A stretch of 34,217 nucleotides of DNA, from the NCBI GenBank assembly GCA_003168215.1, contig PMSW01000129.1, positions 4,937-39,153 on the forward strand, in the 5' to 3' direction. Of the stretch, positions 10,743 to 25,983 are shown piece by piece. The stretch's first letter is position 1, and every line of letters starts with the position of its first letter. The DNA comes from Actinomycetota bacterium. Lineage in GTDB: Bacteria; Actinomycetota; Actinomycetes; Streptosporangiales; Streptosporangiaceae. The position numbers were made by a program, and so were the translations under genes. The notes under the pieces were generated by a model that was not told the DNA's origin, searched no databases, and worked only from the letters and a program-made list of their open reading frames with translations.

Positions 10743-11486
10743 TCAGATGTCTGACGTCCGGATATGTCGATGGACCGCAGTCAGCGGCATCGTCGTGGCG
10801 AGCGCCAGCTGGTACCCGGTCGGTGCAGCGGCTCCGTGCAGGTGCACGGGGACGTCAGGCCAGCGCGGAACCCGGTCCACAATCACCCTTGAGCCACTGA
10901 CGTCCAGCTGGTTCGGCGGTGCCTGAAGTCCGAGCCCGGTCAGCTTCATCGCCGCCTCCTTGCGCGTCCACGCAATGAAGAAAGCCGCCGCACGCTCGGC
11001 CGGCGGCATCCTCGCTGCATGCTCGAGCTCACCGGCGGTCAGTGCGACACCGGCCAGCGCGTCGATGTCGCGATCGGATTCGACACACTCGATGTCGGCG
11101 CCGACGAGGCCGGCCCCGACGACTGCGACCAGGACCCAGTTGCCTGCGTGGGAGACCGAATAGTCAAGGGTCCCGGCGTCGAAGACCGGCCGGCCGTGCA
11201 GGGCGCCGCAGTATCGGCAGACCCGGCTGACGCTGACCTGGCGGGTCGGCAATCCCAGGTAGCGAGAGCCGATCAGCCGCTGTGCCGCCCTGGACGTGAC
11301 GAAGGTGTCCCGGACGTGACGGACCGTCAGGCGCCGGGCGTGCCGGCGCTCGTCGTCGTCGAGCAGGTCCAGCCAGTCGACGCGGCGCCGGATCGGCACG
11401 AGCCAGATATGGCACTCGCCGGGAGCCGGCGCGTCCTCACCCGTTTCAACGGCGGGGCACCGGTAGGCAACCCCGGGCGCGGTCAT
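10743..11486 (-). CDS. Sfp-type 4'-phosphopantetheinyl transferase
   Basis: A 247-residue enzyme that would move the phosphopantetheine arm of CoA onto ACP/PCP domains. Motifs in order: RVCRYCGALHGRP, the Sfp-family Cys-rich segment; DYSVSHAGNWVLVAV; the metal-binding GADIECVESDRD; and FFIAWTRKEAAMKLTGLGL, the WxxKEAxxK motif. The ATG at 11486 overlaps the stop of the protease gene by ATGA, so it is translationally coupled and is the last gene of the minus-strand operon. The locus also has an AcpS-type enzyme (27468-27947). Two types in one cluster suggest carrier proteins with different needs. Confidence 0.93.
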   Translation of the reverse strand: MTAPGVAYRCPAVETGEDAPAPGECHIWLVPIRRRVDWLDLLDDDERRHARRLTVRHVRDTFVTSRAAQRLIGSRYLGLPTRQVSVSRVCRYCGALHGRPVFDAGTLDYSVSHAGNWVLVAVVGAGLVGADIECVESDRDIDALAGVALTAGELEHAARMPPAERAAAFFIAWTRKEAAMKLTGLGLQAPPNQLDVSGSRVIVDRVPRWPDVPVHLHGAAAPTGYQLALATTMPLTAVHRHIRTSDI

Positions 11487-14400
11487 CGCGGCCGGCCGCC
11501 TAATCGCGGCACGGCGGCCGCCCTCGCGGGCCGGCCGGACCACTGGCCAGTACCCGACGGCCGTTCGCCGAGCCCGTGGCCGAGCACCCTGACGGCAGCC
11601 CCCAGCTGCAGGTCCTCGGCAGGTTCGTGCCGCCCTCCGCGACCGTCCCTGCGCGGCTCCAACTCCACCTCGACGTCGGGGTGGACGCCTTGATTCTCCA
11701 GCCCGCGTCCCACGTTGGAGAGGTCGTAGCAGAATTCGGGCTGCGTCGTCACCGTGCCATCAACCAGAGCGCGGCGCGGCCAGGTGGCTATGGTGCCGCC
11801 CCAGGTCCGGCGTCCGACCAGCAGCCCGAGGCCACGATCACGGAACAGGTGAGCGAACAGCTCGCCGTCGGAACCTGTTTCCTCGTTGATCAGTACAACC
11901 ATCGGCCCGCGCGGCGCCTCCGGCGGGTACGGGACCGCGCCGGTCCACCGGCCGTGCTCGGCTCCGCCCCGGCGGCGGGACAACCGGTCCAGCAGCAGTG
12001 GCGAGACGTGGCCGCCGCCGTTGAACCGCACGTCCACGACGAGCCCGTCGCGGTCTAGCTCGGACAGGAAGCCCCGAATGAAGTCGGCATATCCGTCGGC
12101 CGACATGTCCGGCACGTGCAGGTACCCCAGCCGCCCCTCCGACACGGCATGGACGTGGGCGCGATTGCCGTCGACCCAGTCCAGGTAACGCGCACGGGAC
12201 TCATCCGCGACAGCGCGCACGGTGACCCGCCGGCCGGGCGACCCAGCGCGCGCCAGCGTCAGCTCCACTTCGCGCCCGGCCTGGCCGACCAGCAGCTCAC
12301 CCGGCCCCGGCCGGCCGAGCGGCTGACCGTTGACCGCCAGCACCTCATCGCCCGGCCGGATGTCGGTACCCGGCCGGTTGCACGGCGAGGTCGCCGACTC
12401 GTTCCACGAGTCGCCGCGCAGGAGGCCGGCGATTCGCCAGGCTGGCCTCCGGTCGCCGGGTTCGGGCTCGGCCCAGTCGACGCCGAGAAAGCCCTGCCCC
12501 GGCGGCTGCGACGATTCTTGCGGCCGTCCGTGAACCCCGTCGTGACCGTAGTCGCCACCGCGTTCGTAGGCGTGTGAACTCGCCAGCTCGCCCTGTAGCT
12601 CCCACAGCAGATCGGACAGCTCTGACCGGCAGCCGACCAGCTCGAGGAGCGAGAAGTACCGCTCGTACATCGCGTCCCAGTCCAGGTCCGACATCGCCTC
12701 GTCCCAGAACGCCTCCCGCTGCAGTCGCCATGCCTCGCGGAACATCTGGTGCCATTCCGTCGCCGGCCGCACCGCCACCCGTACCCGGTTCAGGTCGAGC
12801 CAGCCGCTCGGGCGCCCGGCCGCCGCCCACGGCACGTCCTGCTCGGACGCCTTGTCGGAGTCGGCGTCGGCGGCGAGCACCCGCAATCGGGTACCGCTGC
12901 GGTACAGCACCGTGCGGGACCGGGCGTCGGTGCTGAGCTCGTCCACGCCGTCCAGGTAGTCCGCCGTTACCTCGCCAGTGGCCAGGTTCACCGCCGTGAC
13001 GGTTCCCTCGGGATCGCGGCCGCCCGTGGCCGGGTCCGGCGCGGCGACCGGGACCCGAAGCAGCAGCACCCGGTCCGGCAGGCCGAGGACGGTCGCATAC
13101 CGGCCCTCTGCCACCGGCAATGCGACCACCCGCCGGGCGATGCCGGGGAATTCGATGTCGGTCACCGGCGAGGCGTCCGGCGCCTCGGCGGGCAGCGGCG
13201 CTCCGGGCCCGAAGGGCGATGGCTCGCGCGCGCGCAGGGTCACCAGGTAGGGACGTGCGCCGAAGGGGAATCCGACGTCGAACTGCACCTGGTCGAGATC
13301 CGGCGTCAGATCGCGCTGGCCGATGAAGTACAAGTAGCGCCCGGCCGGGTCGAAGGCCGGCCGGCAATCCCGGAAAACCGGCTCGGTGACCGCGAAGGTA
13401 CGGCCGGTCCGCGCCTCGACGACCTTGATCGCCGAGGTCCGCGCGGTGTCCGGATAGGTGTAGGCCAACCATCGCCCGTCGGACGACCAGGCCAGATCCT
13501 CGATCCGCTCGTGCGCGGTGGCGTCCACCAGCCGTGGCGTCGGCTCGTCCGCGGCGGTGTCCAGCAACCATAGCTGCTGGCGGTTGGTCGCGAACGCCAC
13601 CTGCCCGGTCGCGGGCGAGGCCAGCAGTTCGGTGACGCAGCCGATCCCCTCCAGGGAGATTTCGGTCGCGGGCGCGGGGGAATCGACCGGCAGTAGCACC
13701 AGGTGCTCGGCAGGACGCGAATCGGCGGCGGCGGCGACCAGGCGCGTGCCGTCGGCCAGCCGGTTGAGGAAGGAGTAGCGCACCCCGTCCGCCGTGCCGT
13801 GCTGCCGCACCGGGCCGGACCAGGGCGCGAAGGTGAATGCCTTGCCGCGTGCCACCACTGCCAGCTCAGCGCCGTCCGGGCTCAGCCTGGCGCCGTCCAG
13901 GTAGTCGGCCGCCGCGACGAATCGCCGCGCCCGCTGGATCTGCGAGCTAGCCAGCTGCACGTCGATCGGCCGGGCCCGGCCATCGGCCGGGTCGAGCAGG
14001 TACACCCGCGCGCCGGCCTGGTAGACCAGCCGCCGTCCGTCCGTGGCTAGGTTGCGCGCGTAGTGATGTCGGTGATCGCTGTGACTGAGCAGGTCCGAAC
14101 CGTCCGGCAACACCGAGTACACGTTCGCAGTTGCCTCGTGGTCACTGAGGAAGTAGACGCGGTCACCGACCCAGCATGGGTCGACCAGGTTTCCCGGCGG
14201 CAATACGGGTCGTCGGAACGGCGCCTCTGCTGCGGTACTCAGCCAGAGCTGGCCGGCCGCGCCGCCGCGGTACCGCTTGCGCCGGGCCGGATCGGCGATG
14301 CTGCGCCCGAGCGCGATCCCGCCGGCCGGGCCGAAAGACACCGAGCTGGCTGCGCCCCACGGCAGCAGCCTGCTCGGGCCGCCATCGGGCGACACGGCGA

Positions 14401-14755
14401 AGAGGCGGTAGCCGAACGCGGCCGGCTGCCCGGCAGTGCTGGCGTACAGGACTTCGCCGGTGCCCGGATGCCAGCCGACCACCGAACAGCGAGCCTGATA
14501 GGTCAGCCGTCGCGCGGTGCCGCCGGATGTCGGCAGCACGTAGACCTCTGCCGGGCCGTCGTTCTGACAGCAGAACGCCACCCGATCACCATCGGGCGAC
14601 AGCCGGGGACGGGTGGCCTGCGACATGCCGGAGGTGAGCCGGCCCGCCGGCCCGCCAGCGGCCGGGACCTGCCACAAGTCGTCCTCGCAGCAGAAGACCA
14701 CGGAGTCACCGCTGATCGTGGGGTGCGCCAGGTACCCGGCGGCCGGACCGGTCAT
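11483..14755 (-). CDS. Tricorn-type S41 serine protease
   Basis: A 1,090-residue cytosolic protease. The N-terminal about 600 residues are beta-propeller repeats (repeated LSPDG, SPDGxxLA and FDPAGRYLYF blades). The core follows with ASSHAYERGGDYGHDG, equivalent to the tricorn SHAYE catalytic His motif, a PDZ domain (IRPGDEVLAVNGQPLG), and the S41 segment DVRFNGGGHVSPLLLDRL, with the nucleophile Ser in NEETGSDGELF. Length and order match tricorn protease homologs. It overlaps the upstream GNAT gene and the downstream PPTase gene by ATGA. Tricorn proteins normally degrade peptides from larger proteases; in this operon, trimming or releasing a modified peptide is an inferred role. Confidence 0.93.
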   Translation of the reverse strand: MTGPAAGYLAHPTISGDSVVFCCEDDLWQVPAAGGPAGRLTSGMSQATRPRLSPDGDRVAFCCQNDGPAEVYVLPTSGGTARRLTYQARCSVVGWHPGTGEVLYASTAGQPAAFGYRLFAVSPDGGPSRLLPWGAASSVSFGPAGGIALGRSIADPARRKRYRGGAAGQLWLSTAAEAPFRRPVLPPGNLVDPCWVGDRVYFLSDHEATANVYSVLPDGSDLLSHSDHRHHYARNLATDGRRLVYQAGARVYLLDPADGRARPIDVQLASSQIQRARRFVAAADYLDGARLSPDGAELAVVARGKAFTFAPWSGPVRQHGTADGVRYSFLNRLADGTRLVAAAADSRPAEHLVLLPVDSPAPATEISLEGIGCVTELLASPATGQVAFATNRQQLWLLDTAADEPTPRLVDATAHERIEDLAWSSDGRWLAYTYPDTARTSAIKVVEARTGRTFAVTEPVFRDCRPAFDPAGRYLYFIGQRDLTPDLDQVQFDVGFPFGARPYLVTLRAREPSPFGPGAPLPAEAPDASPVTDIEFPGIARRVVALPVAEGRYATVLGLPDRVLLLRVPVAAPDPATGGRDPEGTVTAVNLATGEVTADYLDGVDELSTDARSRTVLYRSGTRLRVLAADADSDKASEQDVPWAAAGRPSGWLDLNRVRVAVRPATEWHQMFREAWRLQREAFWDEAMSDLDWDAMYERYFSLLELVGCRSELSDLLWELQGELASSHAYERGGDYGHDGVHGRPQESSQPPGQGFLGVDWAEPEPGDRRPAWRIAGLLRGDSWNESATSPCNRPGTDIRPGDEVLAVNGQPLGRPGPGELLVGQAGREVELTLARAGSPGRRVTVRAVADESRARYLDWVDGNRAHVHAVSEGRLGYLHVPDMSADGYADFIRGFLSELDRDGLVVDVRFNGGGHVSPLLLDRLSRRRGGAEHGRWTGAVPYPPEAPRGPMVVLINEETGSDGELFAHLFRDRGLGLLVGRRTWGGTIATWPRRALVDGTVTTQPEFCYDLSNVGRGLENQGVHPDVEVELEPRRDGRGGRHEPAEDLQLGAAVRVLGHGLGERPSGTGQWSGRPARAAAVPRLGGRPR

Positions 14756-15336
14756 GAGGCCTGATTCGCCTTCGCCCGGATCCGCTCGGCGAGGTCCCGC
14801 CGGCGTTGCGCCACCTTGAGATCCTGGATGCGCGCGTCATCCTCGGTGTCGGTCCAGAACATCGCGGTGCGCCACTGCCCGACCGTGTAGGAGTCGAACT
14901 CGCACCGGACCCGGGAGGCGGCAGCCAGTGACTCGGCCGATTGCAGCATGGTGTTGTGATCGAGCACCTGATTGATGATGACCTGCATGTTCAGCTCCGA
15001 GCGCAGGTAGTGCAACGCCGCGCGCACTGCCGTGATGCCGAACCCGCCACGAAACTTGGGCAGGACGCCGAAGGACAGCTCGCAGCTCTGGCTGCGCCAG
15101 TCGATGGTGGTGATCCAGGCGAAGCCGACCGTTTCGTCATTCGGCCCGCACAACGTGAATATCTGCTTGACATGGTGTTCCTCGGCGATGGTTCGGCGCT
15201 GGTTGGCGAGCAGGGCGTCGTCAGCGGTGGACACCGCGAAGTCGGTCAGGTTCGCCTGGAATCGCGTCTCGCGCAGCAGCCCGGTACGGGCTGCTATGTC
15301 ATCGAGGGTGAAGTGTCTCAAGGTCACGAACGACAT
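14752..15336 (-). CDS. GNAT-like N-acyltransferase (fourth of four)
   Basis: A 194-residue protein of RimJ/RimL-like GNAT type. It contains VGFAWITTIDWRSQSCELSFGVLPKFRGGFGITAVRAALHYLRSEL; the R/GxGxxA-like acyl-donor loop is GGFGITA. The helix and strand MQVIINQVLDHNTMLQSAESLAA closes the fold. A Lys/Arg-rich tail follows. The ATG at 15336 has GGGGGA upstream and overlaps the previous gene by 13 bases; a longer in-frame start at 15432 lies inside that gene and lacks domain content. Acyl donor and acceptor are unknown. The operon head (lysine-rich peptide) makes a lysine acceptor a reasonable guess. Confidence 0.8.
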   Translation of the reverse strand: MSFVTLRHFTLDDIAARTGLLRETRFQANLTDFAVSTADDALLANQRRTIAEEHHVKQIFTLCGPNDETVGFAWITTIDWRSQSCELSFGVLPKFRGGFGITAVRAALHYLRSELNMQVIINQVLDHNTMLQSAESLAAASRVRCEFDSYTVGQWRTAMFWTDTEDDARIQDLKVAQRRRDLAERIRAKANQAS

Positions 15337-15773
15337 AGGTCCCCCACTGTCGCGAAATACACGTGAACGTCCTGGTACTGGCCAGTCTGGTAACGGTGAC
15401 CGCGCAACGTGCCGGTGCGGTGGAAGCCGCAACCGTTGAACGTGCTCTCGGCCGCGCTGCCGGACGGCACCATGGCCACATACGAGGTGCAGCGTTGATA
15501 CGAGCCGAGGAACGTCAGGAACTCGGTCATCAGATCGGGATCAGCCGAGGTCGTCGCGACCGTGGCCTGGCGCGGCTGCTCGCTGTTAGGCACGAACCCC
15601 AGCAGCGCCTGCCCACGGCGGAACACATGGGCACCCAGCCGGGTCAGCTCACCCGCGATCGCCATGTCGTTCTGGGTCACCGGGTCGACGCCGAGGAAGC
15701 CGCGTGCGCCGTCCGGCGTGGCCCGCAGCGCTGCCGCCGCAGCTGGCGGGTCCAACCGCTCGAGGTCAGTCAC
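15324..15773 (-). CDS. GNAT-like acyltransferase (third of four, divergent)
   Basis: A 149-residue protein whose end GCGFHRTGTLRGHRYQTGQYQDVHVYFA is the usual GNAT C-terminal strand pair (GFxxxGTLRxHxYxxGxYxDxxxY). The middle QPRQATVATTSADPDLMTEFLTFLG replaces the normal donor-binding loop and no clear RxxGxG/A motif is seen, so it may be a short or inactive GNAT. The GTG at 15773 overlaps the upstream stop by 8 bases (GTGACTGA). Its position between other GNAT genes suggests tandem duplication followed by divergence, or subunits of one complex. Confidence 0.65.
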   Translation of the reverse strand: MTDLERLDPPAAAAALRATPDGARGFLGVDPVTQNDMAIAGELTRLGAHVFRRGQALLGFVPNSEQPRQATVATTSADPDLMTEFLTFLGSYQRCTSYVAMVPSGSAAESTFNGCGFHRTGTLRGHRYQTGQYQDVHVYFATVGDLCRS

Positions 15774-16227
15774 GACGGACCGCCGCCCAGATCTCGCGTG
15801 GCACGGGCCTGCCGTCGAACCAGACGGCGCTCGGAATCGTCGCCTCGCGCTGGAGTCCGGCCCGTTCGCAGAGGTAGGGCGGCGGGTGTGTCGCGGGGGT
15901 GACCCAGCCATAGACGCGCCGCAGGCTGAGCGTCCGGAAGCCGTACGCAACGGCAGCCGAGATCAGCAACTCCGCCGAGTCGACCGCCTCGCGCCGTACC
16001 CCGATCTCCAAGCGTGCCCTGCGATGCACCCAGTCGACGTCGCAGTAGCGGACGAAGCCCGTGCCGGGCGCCACGCACAGCTCCGACGTCTCGTCCGACG
16101 GCGGCCCGACCGTGGCCGGCTCAGCCAGCACGGGCCAGTTGGGCAAGGGCAGCCCCAGCAGCTCGCCGGACAGCCATGTCCCGGACAGCAGCTCCAGGTC
16201 GCCGGCGCGATATCCCCTGAGCATCAT
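15766..16227 (-). CDS. GNAT-like acyltransferase (second of four)
   Basis: A 153-residue protein. It begins MMLRGYRAGDLELL, a standard GNAT first strand, and contains GTGFVRYCDVDWVHRRARLEIGV, equivalent to the central strands. AELLISAAVAYGFRTLSLRRVYGWVTPATHPPPYLCERAGLQREATI is the typical helix, strand and end of a RimL-like fold. The donor P-loop is poorly conserved. Start ATG overlaps the upstream stop by ATGA. Specific substrate unknown. Confidence 0.72.
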   Translation of the reverse strand: MMLRGYRAGDLELLSGTWLSGELLGLPLPNWPVLAEPATVGPPSDETSELCVAPGTGFVRYCDVDWVHRRARLEIGVRREAVDSAELLISAAVAYGFRTLSLRRVYGWVTPATHPPPYLCERAGLQREATIPSAVWFDGRPVPREIWAAVRRD

Positions 16228-16754
16228 GATGTCAGCGCCCAGATCCGCGCGAAGAAAACGTATCCGTAGCGCTGGCCTCCGTGCCGGACGACGCTGGCCA
16301 GGGTGCCCTCCTCGGTGAGTCCCAGCGAGCGGGCGAAGGCCAGTCCGCGGCCGTCGAACTCGCCGACCTGGACGGCGAGGCGCACCAGTTCCTTCTTCCA
16401 GGTGAGCGCCCGGACGATCTCTTCGAACGCCGAGTGCCACCAGGCATTCGGCGCCGCGGCCCGCAAGCGCAGGTGCAACTGGTAGTGACAGCCGTGCTCA
16501 CCGCCGAAGCCCTCGAGGGCGTACAGGCCGGCCGGCTCGTCGTCGGCGAGCAGCAGCCGGGTGTCCGCGCCGACCAGTTTCCGGATCTCCCACTCCGACC
16601 TGGTGTCCGGTTCGGCAGTGCGGAAGAAGAAATCAGGCTCGCTGAAGAACGCCAGCACGTCGTCGTAATCCGAGTCTGAGCACGCCCGGGCAGACCAGGC
16701 GGGAGCGCCGGTGGCGGGCCGCGATGCCGGTGCGCGGAGCACGGTCGATGTCAC
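16224..16754 (-). CDS. GNAT-like acyltransferase (first of four)
   Basis: A 176-residue protein with a GNAT outline: an N-terminal strand and helix (SARACSDSDYDDVLAFF), LLLADDEPAGLYALEGFGGEHGCHYQLHLRL, a helix with AFEEIVRALTWKKELVRLAVQV and the closing FDGRGLAFARSLGLTEEGTLASVVRHGGQRYGYVFFARI. The end is the best match to the family. The GTG at 16754 overlaps the stop of the dehydrogenase gene by GTGA. It is the first of four such genes directly after the acyl-CoA dehydrogenase. Confidence 0.72.
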   Translation of the reverse strand: MTSTVLRAPASRPATGAPAWSARACSDSDYDDVLAFFSEPDFFFRTAEPDTRSEWEIRKLVGADTRLLLADDEPAGLYALEGFGGEHGCHYQLHLRLRAAAPNAWWHSAFEEIVRALTWKKELVRLAVQVGEFDGRGLAFARSLGLTEEGTLASVVRHGGQRYGYVFFARIWALTS

Positions 16755-17887
16755 GATGCCAGCCCTTGCCGCGCCGGGACGGGCGCGATGTTGAGGCGGA
16801 GGATGTTGCTGGTGCCATCCATGAATTCGAAGGCGAACACGTCCCGGCACCATTTCTCCAGCAGCGGGTGTTCGGCCAGCGAGCCCGGACCGAGTGCGTA
16901 CTCGGCCCACCGGGTGGCCTGTACGGCGAGGTCGGTTACGTGCAGCTTGGCGATCGAGGGTGACCGACGGTCGCCAGGGGAGCCGTCGATCGTGGCCGCG
17001 ACGTCGTAGAGCAAAGCCCGGGCGGCTGCCAGCCGCGCCGACATCAAGTCAAGCCCGGACCAACCGGGACGCTGCTCGCGGACGTAGCCCCAGGCCGCGA
17101 ACCCCACTCCGAGCGCCTGTGCCGCGATCTGCGCCCGCATGACGTTGAAGACGCGGCCGGCGCCCCACATGCCACGCCGGGAGGCCGGCAGGTGGCTGCC
17201 GAGCAGCTCGTCCGGCAGGATGCGTACCCCGTCGAAGGCCAGCCCGCTGATGCAGGCGCCGCGCAGGCCGATCATGTCGAGCAGGTGCGCGTCGAAGCCG
17301 GCGGCCGGGAGCTGGACGAGGGCGGCGCGAATGGTCAGGGCCGAGGGGCCGGTGCGGGCGAACACCACGCCGATGCCGCCCCGGACGGCGTTGGCGACGT
17401 AGCGCTTGGCGCCGTTGAGCCGCCAGCCGCCGCCGGGATCCTTATCGAGGCGGGTCTGCATGGCCGAGGCATCGCTGCCTCGGGCCTCCTCCGTCATGGC
17501 GAAGAAGGTCCAGGTCCGGCCGTCGGCGATGGCGCGGTAGAACCGCTCCTGCTGATCGTCGCTGCCGAGCGCATCGACGGCAAGCCCTGCCAGCGACGCC
17601 CCGGTGTTCGCGCTCAGTATTCCGGCGTCGCCGCAGGCGAGCTCGGCGTTGGCGACGACACGGGCCAGGCAGCTGCCGGTGTAGCTTGCCCCGAACAGTG
17701 AATCGTCGCAGTCCCGGAATCGCCTGGGCGTACTGGCGGTGCGCAGCGACGTCAAGGTCTCCGAGTCCAGGTGTGCAGCCATCTCGAGGGGCCGGGCGTC
17801 GACGGCCAGCGCTCGGGAGCGCAGATCGACTGCCACCTCCCGGCACGTGCTCCGCAGTTCCCTGAGCGCGGGCTCCAGCTCGGTCAT
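16751..17887 (-). CDS. Acyl-CoA dehydrogenase-family flavoprotein, catalytic Glu replaced by Asp
   Basis: A 378-residue ACAD. FAD/substrate-contact motif FFAMTEEARGSDASAMQTRL, then GGWRLNGAKRYVANAVRGG (beta domain), then the C-terminal helical domain ending EFMDGTSNILRL. In most ACADs the catalytic base is the Glu of the YEGT motif; here it is Asp357. The arm B paralog (24844-25983), which aligns from the first residue without a gap and has almost the same length, keeps Glu358. The substrate is probably ACP- or peptide-bound rather than a free CoA ester, inferred from context (compare the prolyl-carrier oxidases RedW and PltE). It starts by TGATG overlap with the half-size ACAD-like gene just upstream. 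Confidence 0.88.
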   Translation of the reverse strand: MTELEPALRELRSTCREVAVDLRSRALAVDARPLEMAAHLDSETLTSLRTASTPRRFRDCDDSLFGASYTGSCLARVVANAELACGDAGILSANTGASLAGLAVDALGSDDQQERFYRAIADGRTWTFFAMTEEARGSDASAMQTRLDKDPGGGWRLNGAKRYVANAVRGGIGVVFARTGPSALTIRAALVQLPAAGFDAHLLDMIGLRGACISGLAFDGVRILPDELLGSHLPASRRGMWGAGRVFNVMRAQIAAQALGVGFAAWGYVREQRPGWSGLDLMSARLAAARALLYDVAATIDGSPGDRRSPSIAKLHVTDLAVQATRWAEYALGPGSLAEHPLLEKWCRDVFAFEFMDGTSNILRLNIAPVPARQGLAS

Positions 17888-18471
17888 CAGCCTGCCTCCC
17901 GGGCGATCCAGCAGTTGGCTATCAGCCGGGCGACGTAGGCGCCGCGCGCCGGGCCGCAGGCCAGGTACCCGCTTGCGCCCAGCAGCTTCGCCACTTCCCA
18001 GTCGATCGCGTTCAGCCGGTCGTGCAGATCGGTCACGGCCACCGCCACGTGCCCGGCCACCAGCAGGCGCTGGCGCAGCGACTCGGTGGCCGTCAGGGCG
18101 TCGGCCAGCGTGCCGGCCACCAGCTGCTTGCGAATGGTCGCCTCACCGCCGGCCGTCCGGCCGGAAAGATGCTCGACAGCTCGTTCGATCAGCAGCCCGG
18201 TGATGCCGAGCCGGACCGCGCCGAGCCGGGCGCCGAGCGCGGTGAGCCCGCGCGCGGGCTCATGGTCGGCGCATCGCACCAGGCTGATCCCCTCGAGATC
18301 GGCCAGCCGGTGCCCGATCACTGCCGCGCCAGCCGGGACCGCGGCAGCCGGGACCGCCGCCACCGGACCGGGCGGGCAGAGCACGTCCACCCCGGTCAGG
18401 GCCTGGGCGAGGCCAGCAGCCAGGCCATCGGCGTAGCCGGCCTTCTCGCACTCGGCGATCGCGTCCAGCAT
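17887..18471 (-). CDS. Half-size ACAD-like protein (C-terminal helical domain), probable partner subunit
   Basis: A 194-residue protein that resembles only the C-terminal helical half of an acyl-CoA dehydrogenase: RLGAVRLGITGLLIERAVEHLSG, then TLADALTATESLRQRLL and WEVAKLLGASGYLACG. The N-terminal FAD motifs are absent. The first about 85 residues (AIAECEKAGYADGLAAGLAQALTGVDVL) have no family I can name. It is a paralog of the gene at 24230-24847, sharing DGLAAGL, the RLGxVRLG helix and KLLGASGYL/KLFGAIGYL. In both arms the gene precedes a full ACAD with overlap, so a heteromer like actinobacterial FadE28/FadE29 is likely. I chose ATG 18471 (GGGAGGA 5 bases upstream) over 18549. Confidence 0.72.
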   Translation of the reverse strand: MLDAIAECEKAGYADGLAAGLAQALTGVDVLCPPGPVAAVPAAAVPAGAAVIGHRLADLEGISLVRCADHEPARGLTALGARLGAVRLGITGLLIERAVEHLSGRTAGGEATIRKQLVAGTLADALTATESLRQRLLVAGHVAVAVTDLHDRLNAIDWEVAKLLGASGYLACGPARGAYVARLIANCWIAREAG

Positions 18472-18562: not shown

Positions 18563-18649
18563 TCAGTGGAATTGGTGCGTGATGAAGCGACTCCGGCACG
18601 GCGGCAAGAAATCCCCGAAAGAACCTCCTGCCGCCATGCCGATGGCCAT
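18563..18649 (-). CDS. Possible second small peptide, translationally coupled (28 aa)
   Basis: An open frame starts in the TAATG junction of the lysine-periodic peptide gene's stop codon and runs 28 codons to a TGA. The peptide begins MAIGMAAGGSFGDF and ends in a basic, His/Phe-containing tail with one Cys. The TAATG junction would allow re-initiation, but there is no ribosome site of its own at the right distance, and the frame crosses a strong stem-loop. It could be chance. No family recognised. Confidence 0.3.
   Translation of the reverse strand: MAIGMAAGGSFGDFLPPCRSRFITHQFH
18595..18640 (-). terminator. Intercistronic stem-loop after the lysine-periodic peptide gene
   Basis: Twelve-base arms GGCATGGCGGCA and TGCCGCCGTGCC (minus strand; one T-G wobble) enclose a 22-base loop. 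It begins nine bases past the peptide stop and lies about 120 bases before the next gene. There is no strong U-run, so partial termination or a stabilising 3' end is more likely than full termination. Such elements commonly give excess precursor peptide over enzymes in RiPP operons; that role is inferred. Confidence 0.55.
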
Positions 18650-18738
18650 TACGCGGCCTTCGCGGCGGCCTTCACGGCGGACTTCGCTGCGGCCTTCGTT
18701 GCGGCCTTAACGGCGGCCTTCACGGCGGACTTCGACAT
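18649..18738 (-). CDS. Lysine-periodic small peptide, seven K-x-A-x tetrads (29 aa)
   Basis: This short gene heads the minus-strand operon. After Met-Ser it consists of seven consecutive units starting with Lys, at residues 3, 7, 11, 15, 19, 23 and 27: KSAV, KAAV, KAAT, KAAA, KSAV, KAAA and a final KAA before the stop. All lysines use AAG. The ATG at 18738 is preceded by GAGGTGAT with 6 bases of spacing, an eight-base match to the 16S anti-Shine-Dalgarno tail. A consensus TTGACA lies about 95 bases upstream. It has no acidic, aromatic or Cys residue and no leader-like segment. Downstream are four GNAT-like genes, an ACAD pair and a protease, so a multi-lysine acyl acceptor (scaffold or RiPP-like precursor) is the leading idea. 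A cationic helix or DNA-binding peptide is the alternative. Confidence 0.75.
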   Translation of the reverse strand: MSKSAVKAAVKAATKAAAKSAVKAAAKAA

Positions 18739-18759
18739 CAGAAATCACCTCGCTCCCTG

Positions 18760-18806: not shown

Positions 18807-18837
18807 TAGACTCGCCGTTGGCGAATCCCGCTGTCAA
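18807..18837 (-). promoter_or_regulatory. Candidate promoter of the peptide/GNAT operon
   Basis: TTGACA (18837-18832, minus strand) is an exact -35 consensus. About 18-21 bases on lies AGTCTAAG, a poor -10 match. A start near 18800 would give a leader of about 60 bases containing the palindrome at 18760-18771. The -10 uncertainty keeps this tentative. Confidence 0.4.
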
Positions 18838-18949: not shown

Positions 18950-18982
18950 CCGTGACTGCCGGACGTGCCGAAGGAGGGCCAG

Positions 18983-20839
18983 ATGCTTACCGAACGCAGT
19001 GCGAACCTCTGCTGGGGCCAGCGGTACCACTGGCTGCGCTACCTCGCGGCACCCGCCGGATCGCGGCACGAAGCGCACATTACCGATAGCTTCCCGTTGC
19101 CCGCCGGCGTCACCGTCACGCAAATCCAGCTGGCGCTGAACTGCCTGGTGCGCCGGCACGAGGTCCTGCGCACCGTCTTCGCACTCGATGCCCGCGGCCT
19201 GCCCCGGCAGCACGTCCAGCCGCCCGCACCGATGCCCATCACCCTCGCTGTCGCGGACGACGGCACCGCGACGCCCGCCGAGGCGATCAGAGGAGTCACC
19301 GAGACCGACTTCGACATGGGCCGGGAGTGGCCGATCCGGGCCTGCGTCGTCACCGCGGCCGGGGTCGTCAAGCGATTGCACATGGTGTTCAACCACGTCG
19401 CCTTCGACGACGTGAGTCTCGGGGCGCTCCGCAGTGACCTGGACATGATGCTGACGGCGGTCATCAGTGGCCGGCCTGTTGCGCTGCAGCCGGTCGCGCA
19501 CCAGCCGGTCGATCTGGCCCGCCGCGAGTCCGCCCTGCCGAGCGCCTCGACGCAGCCAGCGCTCGAGCATTGGCGCGACGAGGTCCGCCGCCTGCCCGCC
19601 GACGTCTTCGCCAGCCGGCGCAGGCGCGTCCCGGTGCCCGGCGCTGCGCACAGCGCATCGCTGACCTCGCCGTCATTGCTGCAGACCACCCAGGATATCG
19701 GGAAGCGGCAGCGGGTCTGGCCCTCGGCAGTGCACCTGGCCGCCTATTCGGTGACCATGGCGGCCTACACCGGCGAGAAGTGCACGGCGCACCGGATGTA
19801 CACCAGCCAGCGTGAAGCGAGCGGCTATCCGTCCGTCGTTACGTGCATGTCGTACCCCACCATGGTGCGGATCGACCTCAGCGATGACCCGCCGTTCAGT
19901 GAGGTCCTGCGCCGGGCCACGGCTCGGGTCGAGCAATCGCTGGCCCACGCGCATGTCCCCTACGACGAGATTGCCGAGCTGGTCGCCTGCGAGAGCACCC
20001 GGCGCGGCCAGCCGGTCCGCCTGGCGTCGGAACTGAATTTCCTCAGCCAGGCGCCGAAGTCCTGCGGCACCCGGCGGGACCGGCTCACGCCGAACCCGGC
20101 GCCGGCTGACTGGGCGCGGGCCGGCTCCGACACGTACTTCCGGATCTATGAGTGGTCCGACGGCGTGACGCTCGTGTTGCAGGCGATGGCAGCCGTGATG
20201 AGGCGGGAGGATGTCGAGCGCTGGCTACGCGGGTATGCGCGGCTGCTGGCCGCCCACCGGGATCCCGCGGTGGACCTGCGGGTCAGCCAGGTAGCCGGTC
20301 TGCTGGGTTTCGCACCGGACGCATCGCGCCGGATCGTGCGGGTAGGTCCGGACGCGGTGGACGTCGACGAGACCGAGGCAGTGCTCTGCGGCCACGCAGC
20401 CGTCGACTCGGCACAGCTGAGCGTCGTCGATCGCGGACTCGTCGCCAACGTGGTCGTGAAGGGCTCGGTGACGGCCGCTGCATTGCGCCGGCATGTGCTC
20501 GGCGCGATGTTCGAGCATGCGGCGGTGCGCTGCCCGGACTGGTTCCGGCTCGTCGACATCGAGGGACTGGCGCCGACCCTGGCCGGAGACGGCCTGGATC
20601 ACGACGTCCTGCTGGCAGGCACCGCGGCCGAGCGGGCGCTGGCCGCAGCCGTGTCGCAGGTCAACGGGGTCGGCCGGCTCAATCTGGCCGACAGCTACCC
20701 GGCCTCCGGCGGTCGCGCGCTGCGCTCGCCGCGAGTGGTTGAGGCGCTGCGCGAGTCCGGCTGGGCCGGCATCTCGATCGGCCAGCTCGGCACTGCCCGG
20801 CCGCTGTCGGCCCTGGCCGGCCTGCTGGAGCGGGCATGA
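18983..20839 (+). CDS. Stand-alone NRPS condensation protein with decayed A-tail and carrier remnant
   Basis: A 618-residue protein. Residues about 1-420 are a condensation-domain fold (LNCLVRRHEVLRTVF is the C2-like motif). The active-site motif HHxxxDG reads NHVAFDD at 137-143: the second, catalytic His138 and Asp142 remain; the first His and the Gly do not. The end is not random: RVGPDAVDVDETEAVLCGHAAVDSAQL resembles the C-terminal subdomain of an adenylation domain without its catalytic Lys. VNGVGRLNLADSYPASGGRAL resembles a peptidyl-carrier domain with the phosphopantetheine Ser replaced by Ala. The start is the ATG with AGGAGG upstream; an earlier in-frame ATG at 18965 lies before that site. 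Likely role: moving an ACP-bound acyl group onto an amine. It overlaps the KAS III gene by ATGA. Confidence 0.82.
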   Translation: MLTERSANLCWGQRYHWLRYLAAPAGSRHEAHITDSFPLPAGVTVTQIQLALNCLVRRHEVLRTVFALDARGLPRQHVQPPAPMPITLAVADDGTATPAEAIRGVTETDFDMGREWPIRACVVTAAGVVKRLHMVFNHVAFDDVSLGALRSDLDMMLTAVISGRPVALQPVAHQPVDLARRESALPSASTQPALEHWRDEVRRLPADVFASRRRRVPVPGAAHSASLTSPSLLQTTQDIGKRQRVWPSAVHLAAYSVTMAAYTGEKCTAHRMYTSQREASGYPSVVTCMSYPTMVRIDLSDDPPFSEVLRRATARVEQSLAHAHVPYDEIAELVACESTRRGQPVRLASELNFLSQAPKSCGTRRDRLTPNPAPADWARAGSDTYFRIYEWSDGVTLVLQAMAAVMRREDVERWLRGYARLLAAHRDPAVDLRVSQVAGLLGFAPDASRRIVRVGPDAVDVDETEAVLCGHAAVDSAQLSVVDRGLVANVVVKGSVTAAALRRHVLGAMFEHAAVRCPDWFRLVDIEGLAPTLAGDGLDHDVLLAGTAAERALAAAVSQVNGVGRLNLADSYPASGGRALRSPRVVEALRESGWAGISIGQLGTARPLSALAGLLERA

Positions 20840-21780
20840 CCTACCTCGAGCGGATCGGCGTCTTCCTGCCTGAGTCCAGCGCCTCTGTGCAGGACCTCAG
20901 CGAGGCACTGGCGCTCAGCCGGAATCAGGTCTCGTTCCTCACCCGCTACCTCGGCCTGGACCGGATCGCTATCGCCCCGGATCTCGATCTTGCCGACATG
21001 CTGACTGCGGCCGGCGCGGATGCCCTGCGGGACGCCGACCGCGACTCGGTGCGCTTCCTTATCCATGCCCACACCATGCAGCACGTCGCGACGGCGTCGA
21101 AGAGCATGCTCTGCGACGTCCGCACCGCGCTCGGGCTACGTAATGCGGTGGTGTTCAGCATGTCCCACATGAATTGCGTGGTCGGACTCCACGCGCTGCA
21201 GGTCGCCCGCGCGCTGCTGCAGTCTGCGCAGCCCGGCGACAAGGTTCTCCTGCTCACCGGGGACAAGATCGTCTCCGACACGCAGCGCATCATTCCCGAC
21301 ACCACGCTGCTGGGCGAGGCAGCAGCCGCCGCCCTCATCGGGCAGGATGCGACCGGGGACCGCGTCGTCGGCCGGGCGCTCACCGTGCTCGGGCGCTTCT
21401 ACCAATGCCTGCATTGGCCGGAGGAGCTCCGACTGGAATACAAGAAGATCTATGTAGAAAATCTTCGCAATGTCATGCAGGCCGCAATTGCCGACGCCGG
21501 ACGGCAGCCCGGCGATATCGATATTATCCTGCCGCACAATGTCAACCGGCTGACCTGGAAAGGCATCTCCCGAGATCTCGGAATTCCGATGGAACGGGTC
21601 TACCTGGACAACATCCCCAAGTTCGGCCACTGCTACGCGTCCGATCCTTTCATCAACCTTGCAAGTGTCCGGGACACCGGGCTGGTGAAAGCCGGCGATC
21701 TCGTCCTGCTCGTTTCCGCCGGCCTCGGCGCGGCATTCGCGGCAACCCTGGTCCAAATCGGCGAAAGAAGAGGCCGATGA
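20836..21780 (+). CDS. KAS III-like ketosynthase/acyltransferase
   Basis: A 314-residue thiolase-fold protein. The nucleophile Cys114 lies in SMSHMNCVVGLHAL, the His in PHNVNRLTW (FabH MHQAN position), but the FabH Asn (GNT) is replaced in FGHCYASDPFINL, where His follows the Gly. Loss of the Asn with Cys-His kept is also found in PqsC and is compatible with acyl transfer or unusual condensation. A Cys-less KAS III-like partner is encoded at 23343-24233. The start overlaps the condensation gene by ATGA, and the end overlaps the decarboxylase by ATGA. Chain extension of the ACP-bound unit is the inferred job. Confidence 0.88.
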   Translation: MTYLERIGVFLPESSASVQDLSEALALSRNQVSFLTRYLGLDRIAIAPDLDLADMLTAAGADALRDADRDSVRFLIHAHTMQHVATASKSMLCDVRTALGLRNAVVFSMSHMNCVVGLHALQVARALLQSAQPGDKVLLLTGDKIVSDTQRIIPDTTLLGEAAAAALIGQDATGDRVVGRALTVLGRFYQCLHWPEELRLEYKKIYVENLRNVMQAAIADAGRQPGDIDIILPHNVNRLTWKGISRDLGIPMERVYLDNIPKFGHCYASDPFINLASVRDTGLVKAGDLVLLVSAGLGAAFAATLVQIGERRGR

Positions 21781-23078
21781 AAATCCAGGGCATCGAATAC
21801 GCCGAACTGGCAGAGCGCTTCGGTACGCCGCTGTACGTCTATGACGGCGACCAGCTCACCCGGACCATCACCGAGCTGGCCGCTGTGCTGCATCCGGCTC
21901 TGGAGATCTTCTTCTCGCTGAAGGCCAATCCGAACATCAGCGTCGTGCACCTGCTGCATGCCGACGGTGCGCGGGCCGAGGTCTCGTCGATGGTCGAGTT
22001 GCGCACCGCGTTGCTGGCCGGCGTGGCGGCCGAGAATATCATCTTCCTCGGCCCCGGCAAGAGCGACCGAGAGCTGCTGGCCTGCCTGCAGGCCGGTGTC
22101 TACGCTATTGTCTGCGAATCCTTCGGCGAGCTGGATCGGATCGAGCGGTTCGCGCGCGAGCGAGGCGTGCGTCAGCGGGTGCTGCTGCGCATCAACCCGG
22201 CCTACGCGATCAAGGGCTCCCGGCTGACCATGGGCGGCAAGCCGCGCCAGTTCGGCATCGACGAGGCCGAGGTGCTCGCGGCGGGCGACCTGACCGGACG
22301 GTACCGGCATGCGGACGTGGCCGGCATCCACGTCTACCTGGGTACCCGGATCCTCGATGCCGAGGTGATCGGGAAGAACACCAGCTATGTGCTGGAGCTG
22401 GCAGAGCGGGCGGCGGACCGGCTCGGCATCCGGCTGGACGCGGTCGACATCGGTGGCGGCCTGGGGGTCGCCTACTTCGACGGCGAGGCCGATCTCGAGG
22501 CCGAGGCTGTTGCGGCGCAGGTCAATCCGCTGCTGGACAAATTCGCCGGCAACCACCCGGACACCCGGCTGATCATGGAGTCCGGCCGCTACCTGACCGG
22601 CCGAGCGGGTGTCTACATGCTGGCTGTCCGGTATGTGAAGACGTCCATGGGAGAGCGGTTCGCGGTCACCGACGGCGGCACCCACCACCACATGGCCGCG
22701 GTGGGCACCGGCTCTTTCGTGAAACGCAACTTCCCTGCCGCGATGCTGAACCCGGCGCGGTGCACTGGCGCCGGGGGCGAGCTGACGCGGTGGAGCGTGG
22801 CCGGCCCGCTCTGCACCCCGAACGACACGCTGCTCAAGAATGTGCCGCTGCCCGACCTGAAACCTGGTGACCTGATCGGCATCCTGAGGTCGGGTGCCTA
22901 CGGGCCGTCCGCCTCGCCCGGGCTGTTCCTCAGCCACGGCTTCCCGGCCGAAGTGCTGGTGGTGGACGGCGAGGCGCACCTGGTGCGCAGCCGCGACGAA
23001 CCTGAGGACCTGTTGAGGCCCCAGCACCTGTACAGCGTGACCCCCGACAGCACCCATCACAGGAGTGAGCCCGCATGA
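21777..23078 (+). CDS. PLP-dependent decarboxylase, DAP/Orn-decarboxylase fold type III (first copy)
   Basis: A 433-residue enzyme of the alanine-racemase/DapDC fold. PLP Lys49 is in FFSLKANPN, the phosphate-binding Gly-rich loop is in DIGGGLGVAY, and the C-terminal active site carries GPLCTPNDTL and GAYGPSASPGLFL. In true DAP decarboxylases the latter reads CESGD and GAYxxxMxSxYN. The changes match the carrier-acting relatives (BtrK, VinO and the exosortase-associated decarboxylases), where the substrate is an aminoacyl-ACP. An ACP follows by ATGA overlap. The ATG at 21777 is coupled to the KAS III stop. The substrate amino acid cannot be told. Confidence 0.88.
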   Translation: MKIQGIEYAELAERFGTPLYVYDGDQLTRTITELAAVLHPALEIFFSLKANPNISVVHLLHADGARAEVSSMVELRTALLAGVAAENIIFLGPGKSDRELLACLQAGVYAIVCESFGELDRIERFARERGVRQRVLLRINPAYAIKGSRLTMGGKPRQFGIDEAEVLAAGDLTGRYRHADVAGIHVYLGTRILDAEVIGKNTSYVLELAERAADRLGIRLDAVDIGGGLGVAYFDGEADLEAEAVAAQVNPLLDKFAGNHPDTRLIMESGRYLTGRAGVYMLAVRYVKTSMGERFAVTDGGTHHHMAAVGTGSFVKRNFPAAMLNPARCTGAGGELTRWSVAGPLCTPNDTLLKNVPLPDLKPGDLIGILRSGAYGPSASPGLFLSHGFPAEVLVVDGEAHLVRSRDEPEDLLRPQHLYSVTPDSTHHRSEPA

Positions 23079-23338
23079 ATCGCACCGAGATCATCGCCCA
23101 CCTTCAGATCGCCCTGTCAGCTGTGCTGAACCGCGACATCCCCGAGCTGCCGGAGGATGCCCGGCTGTTCGACGAGCTGGGTCTGGACTCCACGAGCGTC
23201 ATCGAATTGCTGATGGCGCTGGAGGACACGATCAACCTGGAAGTCGATCCCGACGAGCTGGAGCCCGAGATCTTCCAGACAGTCGGCAGCCTGACCGACT
23301 ACATCGAGGCCGGATTCGTCTCCGCCGCAGCGGTGTGA
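23075..23338 (+). CDS. Acyl carrier protein (arm B)
   Basis: An 87-residue ACP. The phosphopantetheine site is Ser39 in ELGLDSTSVIELL, followed by the acidic helix MALEDTINLEVDPDEL. The ATGA overlap with the decarboxylase gene suggests it carries that enzyme's substrate. It is a paralog of the ACP at 29387-29656, with the Ser at the same residue number. Confidence 0.93.
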   Translation: MNRTEIIAHLQIALSAVLNRDIPELPEDARLFDELGLDSTSVIELLMALEDTINLEVDPDELEPEIFQTVGSLTDYIEAGFVSAAAV

Positions 23339-23342
23339 GGAC

Positions 23343-24233
23343 ATGACCCAGCAGCAGACGCTCGCGCGGACGGTGAACGTCACCGCGCCGCTTGCGGCAG
23401 CGGGGATCCGCGTGTCCGGCATCGTCCATCGCGTGTTCTCGCAGCGAACCCAGCCGCTGATCGCGTGGGACATCGGGCCGGACGACTCGGCCCGCGACTT
23501 CACGCTGGCGTACGGGATCACCGGCGAGCTGCAGGAAATCTCCACGCGCATGGGCAACGGCTTCATCTCGATGAGCGAGGCGCTGCTGTCGCAGCTGGCC
23601 GAGCCCCTTCCCGAGCTGGACGCGGTGATCCTCGCCTATCACTCGCCGGACCTCTTCCATGCCGATGTGGCCGGTTTCTACCTCTCCCAGCGGTTGCCCG
23701 GCTCACCCGTCCCGTGGTCGGTGGCAGAAACCGGCCCGGGGGCCGGGTTCACCGCCCTGCGGATTACCGACGGCATGCGGCGAATGGGCGAGCTGGATCA
23801 CGGCGCGCTGTTCGTCTACGACCAGAATGCCGCGATGTCCGAGCCCGACGACACGGTCAGCGCGATACCCGACGCCGCCGTACTGCTGACGGTGGGCGGG
23901 ACCGGCGGCGCAGTCGTCAGCGATTTCATCGATGCGCGGACGTCCGAACCCGGCGACCCGACCGCAGCGGGCGCCCTCGCCGCGGCCATGGCCCGGCACG
24001 GCGTCGGCACCGGGCCGACAGCTATCCTGGCCGGTGCCGGACTGGCGGCTGCGCTGGCCGGTACGGCCCTGGCTGATCGCGTGCAGGTCGCCGACGCCGA
24101 CGCGCAGAGCACCGGTGTCTGGGCTGCGCTGGCGAGCCGCTGGCCGATCAGCGAACCCGTCCTGGTCGCCGACCACGATCCGGTCGGCGGCATGTTCCGC
24201 AGTTGCCTGCTCTGCCCGGAGGCCGGACGGTGA
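23343..24233 (+). CDS. KAS III-like protein without active-site Cys (probable partner subunit)
   Basis: A 296-residue protein with a thiolase-like outline (LDAVILAYHSPDLF, then WSVAETGPGAGFTALRI). The GPGAGF segment aligns with ACAGF of FabH and puts Gly133 at the nucleophile Cys position. I cannot find the His (HQAN) and Asn (GNT) motifs. This is what a structural, non-catalytic partner looks like: PqsB with PqsC, or chain-length factor with KS-alpha. The gap from the ACP stop is 4 bases, with GAGG before the ATG. A degenerate, non-functional gene is possible but less likely given the unbroken frame and overlaps. Confidence 0.72.
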   Translation: MTQQQTLARTVNVTAPLAAAGIRVSGIVHRVFSQRTQPLIAWDIGPDDSARDFTLAYGITGELQEISTRMGNGFISMSEALLSQLAEPLPELDAVILAYHSPDLFHADVAGFYLSQRLPGSPVPWSVAETGPGAGFTALRITDGMRRMGELDHGALFVYDQNAAMSEPDDTVSAIPDAAVLLTVGGTGGAVVSDFIDARTSEPGDPTAAGALAAAMARHGVGTGPTAILAGAGLAAALAGTALADRVQVADADAQSTGVWAALASRWPISEPVLVADHDPVGGMFRSCLLCPEAGR

Positions 24234-24847
24234 GCGCCGCCACCGGCGAGCTCCGGAAGAGCTGCATGCGGGAATGCGAGCTGGTCGCCCGGTCCGATGG
24301 CCTGGCCGCCGGCCTCGGACTGGCGTTGCTCGGAGTGGATGTTCTCGCCGTGGCCCCCGGCCGGTGGGCGGCGGTTCCGTCCCGGCAGGCGCCGATCGGC
24401 GCCAAGACGCGGACACACCGGCTGGCCGAACCGGAGGGCATCGTCTTCGTGGCGTGCCCCGGCGACCGGCCGCAGGCCACGCCCGGCCTCCTGAGGACCG
24501 GCAAGCTGCTCGCCGCCGTCCGGCTCGGCCTCGTCCGCCGGCTACTGGACCTGGCCGTCGAGCATCTGGCCGGCCGCACCACCGGCGGGGAGCCGTTGCT
24601 GAGCAAGCAACTGCTGAGCGGCGATATCGCCAACGTCATCGCCGACGTCGAGCTGCTGCGGGTATACGCGCGGTGCCAGCACGACCTGGCTGCGATGGCC
24701 GAACTGCACCGGCAGCTCGGCGAGCTCGGCTGGCAGGTCACCAAACTCTTCGGCGCAATCGGGTATCTGGCCGATTATCCCGTCCGCGCGCTGTACGTCG
24801 CGGTCCTGGTGGCCGACACCTGGCTAGCCGGGGAGGCGGCGCAGTGA
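24230..24847 (+). CDS. Half-size ACAD-like protein (arm B copy)
   Basis: A 205-residue paralog of 17887-18471. It has the same layout: an N-terminal about 90 residues of unknown family including RSDGLAAGLGLALLGVDVL, then ACAD C-terminal helices RLGLVRRLLDLAVEHLAGRTTGGEPLLSKQLLSGDIANVI and WQVTKLFGAIGYLADYP. The FAD-binding N-terminal region is missing. The GTG start overlaps the previous stop (GTGA), and its own stop overlaps the next ACAD start, so it is coupled to its likely partner. Confidence 0.72.
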   Translation: MSAATGELRKSCMRECELVARSDGLAAGLGLALLGVDVLAVAPGRWAAVPSRQAPIGAKTRTHRLAEPEGIVFVACPGDRPQATPGLLRTGKLLAAVRLGLVRRLLDLAVEHLAGRTTGGEPLLSKQLLSGDIANVIADVELLRVYARCQHDLAAMAELHRQLGELGWQVTKLFGAIGYLADYPVRALYVAVLVADTWLAGEAAQ

Positions 24848-25983
24848 CCGGCATGGACGCGCGGCTGCAGGCGATCAGGAACGCCACCCGGGTGGCGTCG
24901 GAAGACCTGCGTGCCCGCGCACTGTCGATAGACGCCGATCCGGACGCGATGGAGGCCCACCTCGACTCCCCGGTGTTCGCGTTGATGCGCGAGGTCGGCA
25001 CGCCCGACGCCTACCGCGAATCCCACTCCGCCAGCGGGGAGTTGCTGAAGCACGGTGCCTCCTGCCTGGAGAACGCTGTCGGGACCGTGGAACTGGCCAG
25101 GGGCGACGCCGCGGTGGCGCTAGCCTGCCCGTCACCCGCGCTGGCCGGCGTCATCGTCGACCTGCTCGGCACCGAGAAACAGCAGGAGCTGTTTTACACC
25201 CGCCTGCACGGCGGCCGGACCTGGACCTTCTTCGCCATGACCGAGCCCCGTCACGGTAGCGACGCGACCGCGATGGAGACCCGCCTGGAGCGCGACGGCG
25301 CCGGGGACTGGCTGCTCTCGGGCCGCAAGCTCTACATCGGCAACGGCGCCCGCGGCGGCATCGGGGTGGTGTTCGGCCGCACCGGCCCGTCCCCGCTGTC
25401 CATCCGCGCGGCGCTGATCGAGTTGCCCGCGGCCGGCTGGCAGGGCAAGCGGGTGGACACGATTGGCCTGCGGGGCGCCTACCTCAGCGAGCTGAGCTTC
25501 GACAAGGTGCCGGTGCGCAGCGACATGCTGCTCGGCCAGCACCTGCCCGCCACCCGGCGCGGCATGTGGGGCGCGATCAAGACCTTCAACGCGATGCGGG
25601 TGCAGGTCGCCGGAGCCGCCGTCGGCACCGCGCTGGCCATGACCGAGTACGTCGCCGAGCATCACAAGAATGCCACCGGCGCCGACCTTGTCCTGGCCCG
25701 GGCACAGGCCGCCCGTGAACTGGTATTCGAGGCGGCAGCGCGGACCGATCGGGACCCGGAGCGGAGTTACCTGTCGTGCGTGGCCAAGCTCGGCGCCGCC
25801 CGGGTCGCTGTGCAGACAGCGCGCTGGGCGTCCAGCGCCCTCGGTCCGGCCGGATTGCTGGAGCACCCGCTGCTGGAAAAGTGGATCCGCGACAGTTGCG
25901 GTTTCGAGTTCATGGAGGGCACCGGCAACATCCAGCGGCTGCACGTGTCCCGGGGCTACCAAGCCGGCGATGCCAGTGTGTGA
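24844..25983 (+). CDS. Acyl-CoA dehydrogenase-family flavoprotein (arm B copy)
   Basis: A 379-residue ACAD with FFAMTEPRHGSDATAMETRL, DWLLSGRKLYIGNGARGG, a helical C-terminal domain and EFMEGTGNIQRL. The catalytic Glu358 is present, unlike in the arm A paralog. The GTG start at 24844 (GTGA overlap with the half-size gene) makes the first 13 residues align without gaps with the paralog, which supports it over the ATG at 24853. Probable role: desaturating the carrier-bound acyl or aminoacyl chain together with the half-size subunit. Confidence 0.9.
   Translation: MTGMDARLQAIRNATRVASEDLRARALSIDADPDAMEAHLDSPVFALMREVGTPDAYRESHSASGELLKHGASCLENAVGTVELARGDAAVALACPSPALAGVIVDLLGTEKQQELFYTRLHGGRTWTFFAMTEPRHGSDATAMETRLERDGAGDWLLSGRKLYIGNGARGGIGVVFGRTGPSPLSIRAALIELPAAGWQGKRVDTIGLRGAYLSELSFDKVPVRSDMLLGQHLPATRRGMWGAIKTFNAMRVQVAGAAVGTALAMTEYVAEHHKNATGADLVLARAQAARELVFEAAARTDRDPERSYLSCVAKLGAARVAVQTARWASSALGPAGLLEHPLLEKWIRDSCGFEFMEGTGNIQRLHVSRGYQAGDASV

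Follow-up and report, generated by a model that had tools for sequence, protein, structure and literature searches.

In the 34,217-nt stretch of actinobacterial DNA analysed here (the window), a minus-strand gene encodes a 29-residue peptide with a Lys at every fourth position. The gene, its frame and its Lys register are conserved in nine other genomes, and the peptide co-occurs strictly with three acetyltransferase-like genes (gnat1-3) and a tricorn-like protease. We consider it probable that the peptide is a leaderless multi-unit ribosomal substrate, on which GNATs would acylate Lys with an ACP-borne aminoacyl or enamide group before the tricorn-like protease cuts the chain. Lys acylation, the acyl group, the protease cleavage, the order of the steps and the product are what we infer from conservation, co-occurrence and the relatives of the enzymes.

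Translation placed Lys at positions 3, 7, 11, 15, 19, 23 and 27, with Ala or Ser next to each and Ala after that, exactly as a sequence-only reading of the same DNA had described (Table 1). The strong ribosome-binding site named in that reading is also present, although its spacing to the ATG is five bases and not the claimed six. Likewise, the gene content reported downstream was essentially correct (two ACAD-type genes, four GNAT-like genes, a tricorn/S41 protease and a PPTase), but a long hairpin (about 18594-18641) separates the peptide gene from these genes. The peptide is indeed unlike the tails of HupB or histone H1, which are basic, Pro- or KK-rich and attached to a longer DNA-binding protein: it is a stand-alone open reading frame, devoid of Pro and with strict four-residue Lys spacing. 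It matched no NCBIfam or PHROG family, and no description of such a system was found in the open-access literature on tricorn, Lys-repeat and GNAT precursors; subscription journals may differ. The window covers most of contig C161 of the source draft genome (4.6 Mb, estimated to be 74.6% complete), in which the peptide occurs once.

Table 1. Features of the window around the Lys-repeat peptide gene
Feature	Position	Strand	Remark
Sfp-type 4'-phosphopantetheinyl transferase	10743..11486	-	
Tricorn-like S41 protease	11483..14755	-	PD40 propeller, C1, PDZ and catalytic domains
gnat4	14752..15336	-	Pfam Acetyltransf_3
gnat3	15324..15773	-	predicted GNAT fold (AlphaFold2 model and Foldseek)
gnat2, distant SpeG (spermidine N-acetyltransferase)-like	15766..16227	-	profile match to SpeG
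gnat1	16224..16751	-	predicted GNAT fold (AlphaFold2 model and Foldseek)
AcdA, acyl-CoA dehydrogenase	16751..17887	-	
AcdB, acyl-CoA-dehydrogenase C-domain-like	17887..18471	-	start probably 18471 (ribosome site), revised from 18549
Hairpin	18594..18641	-	22 bp, 7 nt 3' of peptide stop codon, -39.0 kcal/mol, no U-tract
Lys/4 peptide gene	18649..18738	-	translates to MSKSAVKAAVKAATKAAAKSAVKAAAKAA, then stop; orthologous peptides in 9 other genomes
Ribosome-binding site GAGGTGAT	18744..18751	-	5 nt 5' of ATG of Lys/4 peptide gene
Putative promoter TTGACA-N18-GAGTCT	18808..18837	-	99 nt before peptide start codon
Stand-alone condensation (C) domain protein	18965..20839	+	divergent from peptide
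KS3, KASIII-like	20836..21780	+	
ODC1, BtrK-like aminoacyl-ACP decarboxylase	21777..23078	+	
ACP1, acyl carrier protein	23075..23338	+	
KSb, conserved, no Pfam match	23343..24233	+	between ACP1 and AcdB in BGC family
Second AcdB-like subunit	24203..24847	+	
Second AcdA (acyl-CoA dehydrogenase)	24844..25983	+	
MATE transporter	26011..27396	+	
AcpS-type phosphopantetheinyl transferase	27462..27947	+	
LuxR/HTH-type regulator	28024..29094	-	conserved in type-A clusters
ACP2, acyl carrier protein	29387..29656	+	
AMPlig, VinN-like adenylating enzyme	29649..31289	+	
ODC2, BtrK-like decarboxylase	31136..32494	+	true start probably near 31280

None of gnat1, gnat2 and gnat3 reaches the Pfam threshold. 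The AlphaFold2 models of gnat1 (pLDDT 78) and gnat3 (pLDDT 88) nevertheless have the predicted fold of a GNAT, with best PDB GNAT matches at E values of 5e-8 and 2e-7, respectively. Together with the SpeG match of gnat2, these models bear out the earlier count of four GNAT-like genes. Beside the cluster, and probably outside it, is a gene (9431-10573, minus strand) for a Phosphoesterase-family protein (PF04185) with a stretch at its N-terminus that resembles a secretion signal.

We scanned 84,980 genomes for the pattern ATG-x-(K-[AST]-A-x)4 and obtained 40 matches, among which the sole comparable stand-alone actinobacterial one is a 49-residue peptide from Streptomyces sp. XM83C (MTKAATKAASKAASKAAAK...KAA, then stop). 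It is followed by a hairpin, AcdB, AcdA, gnat1, gnat2 and gnat3, with 51-59% identity to the window (55% for AcdB, 57% for AcdA and 59% for gnat1), and a C-domain gene is divergent from it. The XM83C cluster belongs to a type that we call A and is split over contigs; only gnat1-3 are visible on these fragments. Searches guided by gnat1, and blind to the peptide, led to eight further clusters, one in genome G895 and then seven strong loci in the family of XM83C. The peptide was present in all eight, giving ten clusters with the window and XM83C. Six type-A loci share the order ODC2-AMPlig-ACP2-LuxR-Cdom and, divergently, peptide-ACP1-AcdB-AcdA-gnat1-gnat2-gnat3-gnat4-tricorn-sfp. At two type-B loci (L126 and L127), the peptide is at the front of an operon in which KS3 comes first and ODC1, ACP1, KSb, AcdB, AcdA and MATE are also present, with gnat1-4 and tricorn farther along; the first 20 kb looked at in these two contained no peptide, and the flanks showed that it leads the KS3 operon.

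A protein search with AcdB retrieved a wider BGC family (KS3, BtrK-like decarboxylase, ACP, ACADs, MATE) without the peptide, which we used as a control. The peptide accompanies the GNATs and the tricorn-like protease, itself present throughout, in ten of ten clusters, whereas none of 14 related clusters without gnat1-4 and tricorn has it. The peptide finder demanded a frame with period-4 Lys and could miss a differently spaced peptide, but none of the ten clusters needed one. Absence of the frame or its Lys period from related loci was to have counted against the sequence-only reading; instead, all ten GNAT-bearing clusters have the peptide, with Lys at 146 of 146 register positions. A gnat4 search in 297 genomes of the class returned only the window, a gnat1 search in plasmids returned none, and a gnat1 profile run on 260 genomes of the window's order returned the window plus two weak partial GNAT matches. 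Weak gnat1 matches at L128 and L129 were rejected as cluster members, as neither locus has such a cluster. The wider family (L017-L030), with KS3, BtrK-like decarboxylase, ACP, KSb, an AcdB/AcdA pair, MATE, C domain and PPTase, was seen in about 5% of the genomes sampled from the window's family, and its members lack the peptide, the GNATs and tricorn. As a separate observation, positions 10743-32494 of the window resemble a merger of two cluster types that share one peptide: the minus-strand operon together with ODC2, AMPlig, ACP2 and LuxR is orthologous to type-A clusters (L108, L121-L125), and the plus-strand operon (20836-27947) is mostly 55-77% identical to the type-B clusters.

All ten peptides have the common form M-x(1-2)-(K-x-x-x)n-K-x-A-stop with n from 6 to 23, resulting in lengths of 29 to 97 residues and 7 to 24 equivalent Lys per peptide. 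Only three Lys residues in the ten peptides are off register. Ala fills the +2 position in 138 of 146 units, and Ala, Val or Ser predominate at +1 and +3. Since such repeats expand by slippage, the 146 positions do not count as independent; the contrast of ten of ten with none of 14 is free of this caveat. The G895 peptide (KSSGKVSGKKQGKVSG...) has little in common with the others beyond the Lys register, with spacers such as KVSGKKQG. The peptide genes of L124 and L125 differ by eight synonymous codons and one nonsynonymous codon, plus one whole unit. Spacer residues vary among species and leave no clear unit boundary for any product. No leader peptide or recognition domain was identified, as only M-x or M-x-x precedes the first repeat Lys in each of the ten peptides.

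The putative promoter in Table 1 has counterparts in seven of eight type-A loci, in which a TTGAC-N17/18-GARTCT element lies 99 to 122 nt before the start codon; a generic sigma-70 scan found nothing at the window locus. A G+C-rich hairpin lies 3' of the stop codon in all ten loci. The predicted layout is that of a first cistron with high expression and only limited passage of transcription into the genes behind it, as many RiPP operons have where the precursor gene meets the enzyme genes. With a strong promoter and ribosome site, and a hairpin after the stop codon, far more peptide than enzyme would be made.

The window contains the features of a beta-aminoacyl-ACP cassette, namely a VinN-like ligase, BtrK-like decarboxylases, free ACPs and acyl-CoA dehydrogenases. 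VinN is the best stand-alone solved relative of AMPlig; in the alignment Asp230 and Arg331 are conserved and Ser299 is replaced by Thr (residue roles according to PMC7756342). Both ODC1 and ODC2 best match BtrK; the ligase and the decarboxylases have VinN- and BtrK-type relatives, respectively. In known pathways, a VinN-like ligase, a free ACP, a BtrK-like decarboxylase, a KASIII-like protein and an acyl-CoA dehydrogenase produce beta-aminoacyl or dehydro-beta-alanyl thioesters (PMC7756342, PMC11204786, PMC11284099), the bolagladin cassette making N-acyl-dehydro-beta-alanyl thioesters (PMC7756342). The products of the bolagladin, autucedine and vicenistatin cassettes (among them VinN/VinL/VinO and BolO/BolC/BolN/BolQ) feed NRPS or PKS lines (PMC7756342, PMC11204786, PMC11284099). 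The window shares the ligase, free ACPs, decarboxylases, KASIII-like protein and ACADs with these cassettes, and this set also resembles the autucedine/olenamidonin pathway (PMC11204786). Unlike in those cassettes, a ribosomal Lys array is always present here, and the window contains one free C domain with no NRPS or PKS line. Together, the VinN- and BtrK-like enzymes, ACPs and ACADs point to an ACP-borne beta- or gamma-aminoacyl group, possibly desaturated, as the GNAT donor. Between KS3 and ODC1, L126 (840-2240) carries what looks like the gene for a BtrJ-type ATP-grasp ligase, and a gap of similar size is found in L017-type loci. In the window KS3 and ODC1 overlap (21777-21780), which leaves the VinN-like enzyme, or one encoded elsewhere, as the ligase.

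The small open reading frame would accordingly provide a leaderless multi-unit substrate of K-x-A-x units, either as a RiPP-like precursor or as a consumable scaffold. The VinN-like ligase and BtrK-like decarboxylases would build a beta- or gamma-aminoacyl thioester on the cluster ACPs; as in the pathways to bolagladin or autucedine, the acyl-CoA dehydrogenases might desaturate it. At least one of the four GNATs would then acylate the side chains of the regularly spaced Lys residues, and the decorated chain would be cut by the tricorn-like S41 protease into small, exportable lysine-containing units. The strict link with GNATs and a protease is what an acyl-acceptor scaffold or a multicore RiPP-like precursor predicts, and the earlier proposal of such a role is partly supported. 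In all ten clusters an encoded precursor lies beside genes for modifying enzymes, as in RiPP clusters, and the leader or recognition sequence that is common but not universal in RiPPs is lacking. We more tentatively suggest, at slightly less than an even chance, that the peptide is a disposable Lys-array template representing a new class of ribosomal natural product biosynthesis, whose side-chain amines ACP-dependent GNATs would load with beta/gamma-amino-acyl or dehydro-beta-alanyl groups before the tricorn-like protease releases many identical small lysine-derived molecules from each chain.

Multicore RiPPs such as dikaritins and ustiloxins are likewise built of short units in tandem, variable in number and later separated by cleavage, as we propose here. 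Unlike them, the present peptides have no leader and no recognisable cleavage motif between units, and in their tetrapeptide unit only Lys is fixed, with Ala nearly always at +2. LysW, an amino-group carrier protein with a single C-terminal Glu on a folded domain, is comparable as a small protein that may serve as a consumable or reusable carrier for amine chemistry, but here many Lys residues line a repeat. PQQ and mycofactocin are products of peptide scaffolds that are later proteolysed, the fate we propose for this peptide. The same holds for the PEARL scaffold pathway to ammosamide, in which the encoded peptide is proteolysed to free the small molecule (PMC12715798); here, by contrast, the scaffold is all repeat without a conserved leader, and no lantibiotic-dehydratase-like PEARL ligase was found among the window ORFs scanned. 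The closest precedents for the proposed acylation are the selidamides and nostolysamides, RiPPs acylated by GNATs on Orn or Lys side chains (PMC9505594, PMC13060382). Those described are lanthipeptides in which one residue or a few bear fatty acyl groups (PMC9505594, PMC13060382), and selidamide precursors carry NHLP- or Nif11-type leaders (PMC13060382). Our clusters likewise have GNAT genes beside a ribosomal Lys-bearing precursor, although Lys acylation is deduced here. They differ in lacking a leader, whether of the NHLP or Nif11 type or any other, and in having 7 to 24 equivalent Lys along with four GNATs and an aminoacyl cassette based on ACPs.

The period alone proves nothing, since 12-bp K-x-A-x repeats are common in the window's order: a four-unit match at the DNA level occurs in 58 of its 347 genomes, and those inspected lie mostly within longer proteins or in unlikely small-gene frames. 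This pattern was therefore discarded as a sole marker across the order. The probability of strict period 4 for seven Lys randomly placed among 28 residues (P ~3e-6) overstates the significance because the DNA itself is a 12-bp repeat. That the gene is an unexpressed, fortuitously open tandem repeat is nonetheless scarcely credible. Conservation of frame, register and neighbourhood in nine other genomes raises the peptide above chance; it is present at ten of ten syntenic loci, mostly with ribosome sites, its promoter element and hairpin are conserved, its repeat units have diverged synonymously, and no such peptide occurs in 441 kb of control and flanking DNA. The same repeat could instead be the leader peptide of an attenuator, in which ribosomes stalling at Lys (or Ala) codons control a terminator hairpin before the operon. 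A short frame rich in AAG codons, a run of possible control codons, does precede a strong hairpin in all ten loci. We regard this as very unlikely, because the best duplex between the frame and the 5' arm in the window reaches only -23.9 kcal/mol against -39.0 kcal/mol for the hairpin, 95% of whose pairs stay in the joint fold; the window, whose hairpin lacks a U-tract, showed no mutually exclusive antiterminator that comes near this stability. Attenuation would also not lead one to expect 29 to 97 codons with an exact period of four, and gives no reason for the co-occurrence with GNATs and tricorn.

The peptide might also act without being consumed, as a basic structural or regulatory chain that binds RNA, DNA, ACPs or a cluster enzyme. 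It is a short, basic chain with much Ala that probably forms a helix in most copies, and basic small proteins occur elsewhere, such as 25-residue KK-rich ORFs in Cytophagales. Such a role seems unlikely to us: it leaves the strict link with GNATs and the protease unexplained, as well as an exact four-residue period that persists while the rest turns to V-S-G and K-Q-G, and no NCBIfam or PHROG family supports it. Distinctly unlikely, too, is a toxic cationic product against which the GNATs and the tricorn-like protease protect the host by acetylation or degradation. GNATs and proteases are common immunity factors, the peptide is cationic and an ABC-2 exporter flanks one type-A locus; but four GNATs are more than immunity would call for, this reading gives no role to the ACPs, VinN-like ligase, decarboxylase and ACADs, and neither a signal peptide or leader nor an exporter dedicated to peptides was seen. 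The GNATs could also acylate a product of the C domain and ACPs, or serve resistance, rather than modify the peptide.

If the multi-unit substrate reading is true, carrier-protein beta-amino-acid chemistry, so far found to prime PKS or NRPS lines, is joined to a ribosomal peptide, and an entire precursor can be repeat without a leader. The combination of M-x-(K-x-x-x)n-K-x-A-stop, a hairpin, GNATs and tricorn offers a handle for mining clusters whose precursor gene is too short and repetitive for routine gene finding, and the 29-residue size makes a synthetic peptide suitable for direct enzymology.

Several other loci deserve mention. In another genome of the order (L055, G243), KAAT repeats occur in an open frame of 59 residues. 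Cytophagales/Bacteroidota repeatedly contain KK-rich ORFs that stand alone and are 25 residues long (MAKTAKKAAKKSAKKTAKKAAKKKK and variants), preceded by similar sequences that end in CGCT (L062, L063, L064, L070, L071, L074, L078, L082, L086, L088, L093, L095, L097, L098, L099); we judged them unrelated to the peptide, and they may form a separate family of small basic proteins. The type-A cluster seen at L123 and L136 has, on one side, a SARP regulator (BTAD/NB-ARC) and a pair of ABC-2 transporters, and on the other a CDP-glycerol glycerophosphotransferase; the SARP regulator and ABC-2 exporter are typical of specialised metabolism.
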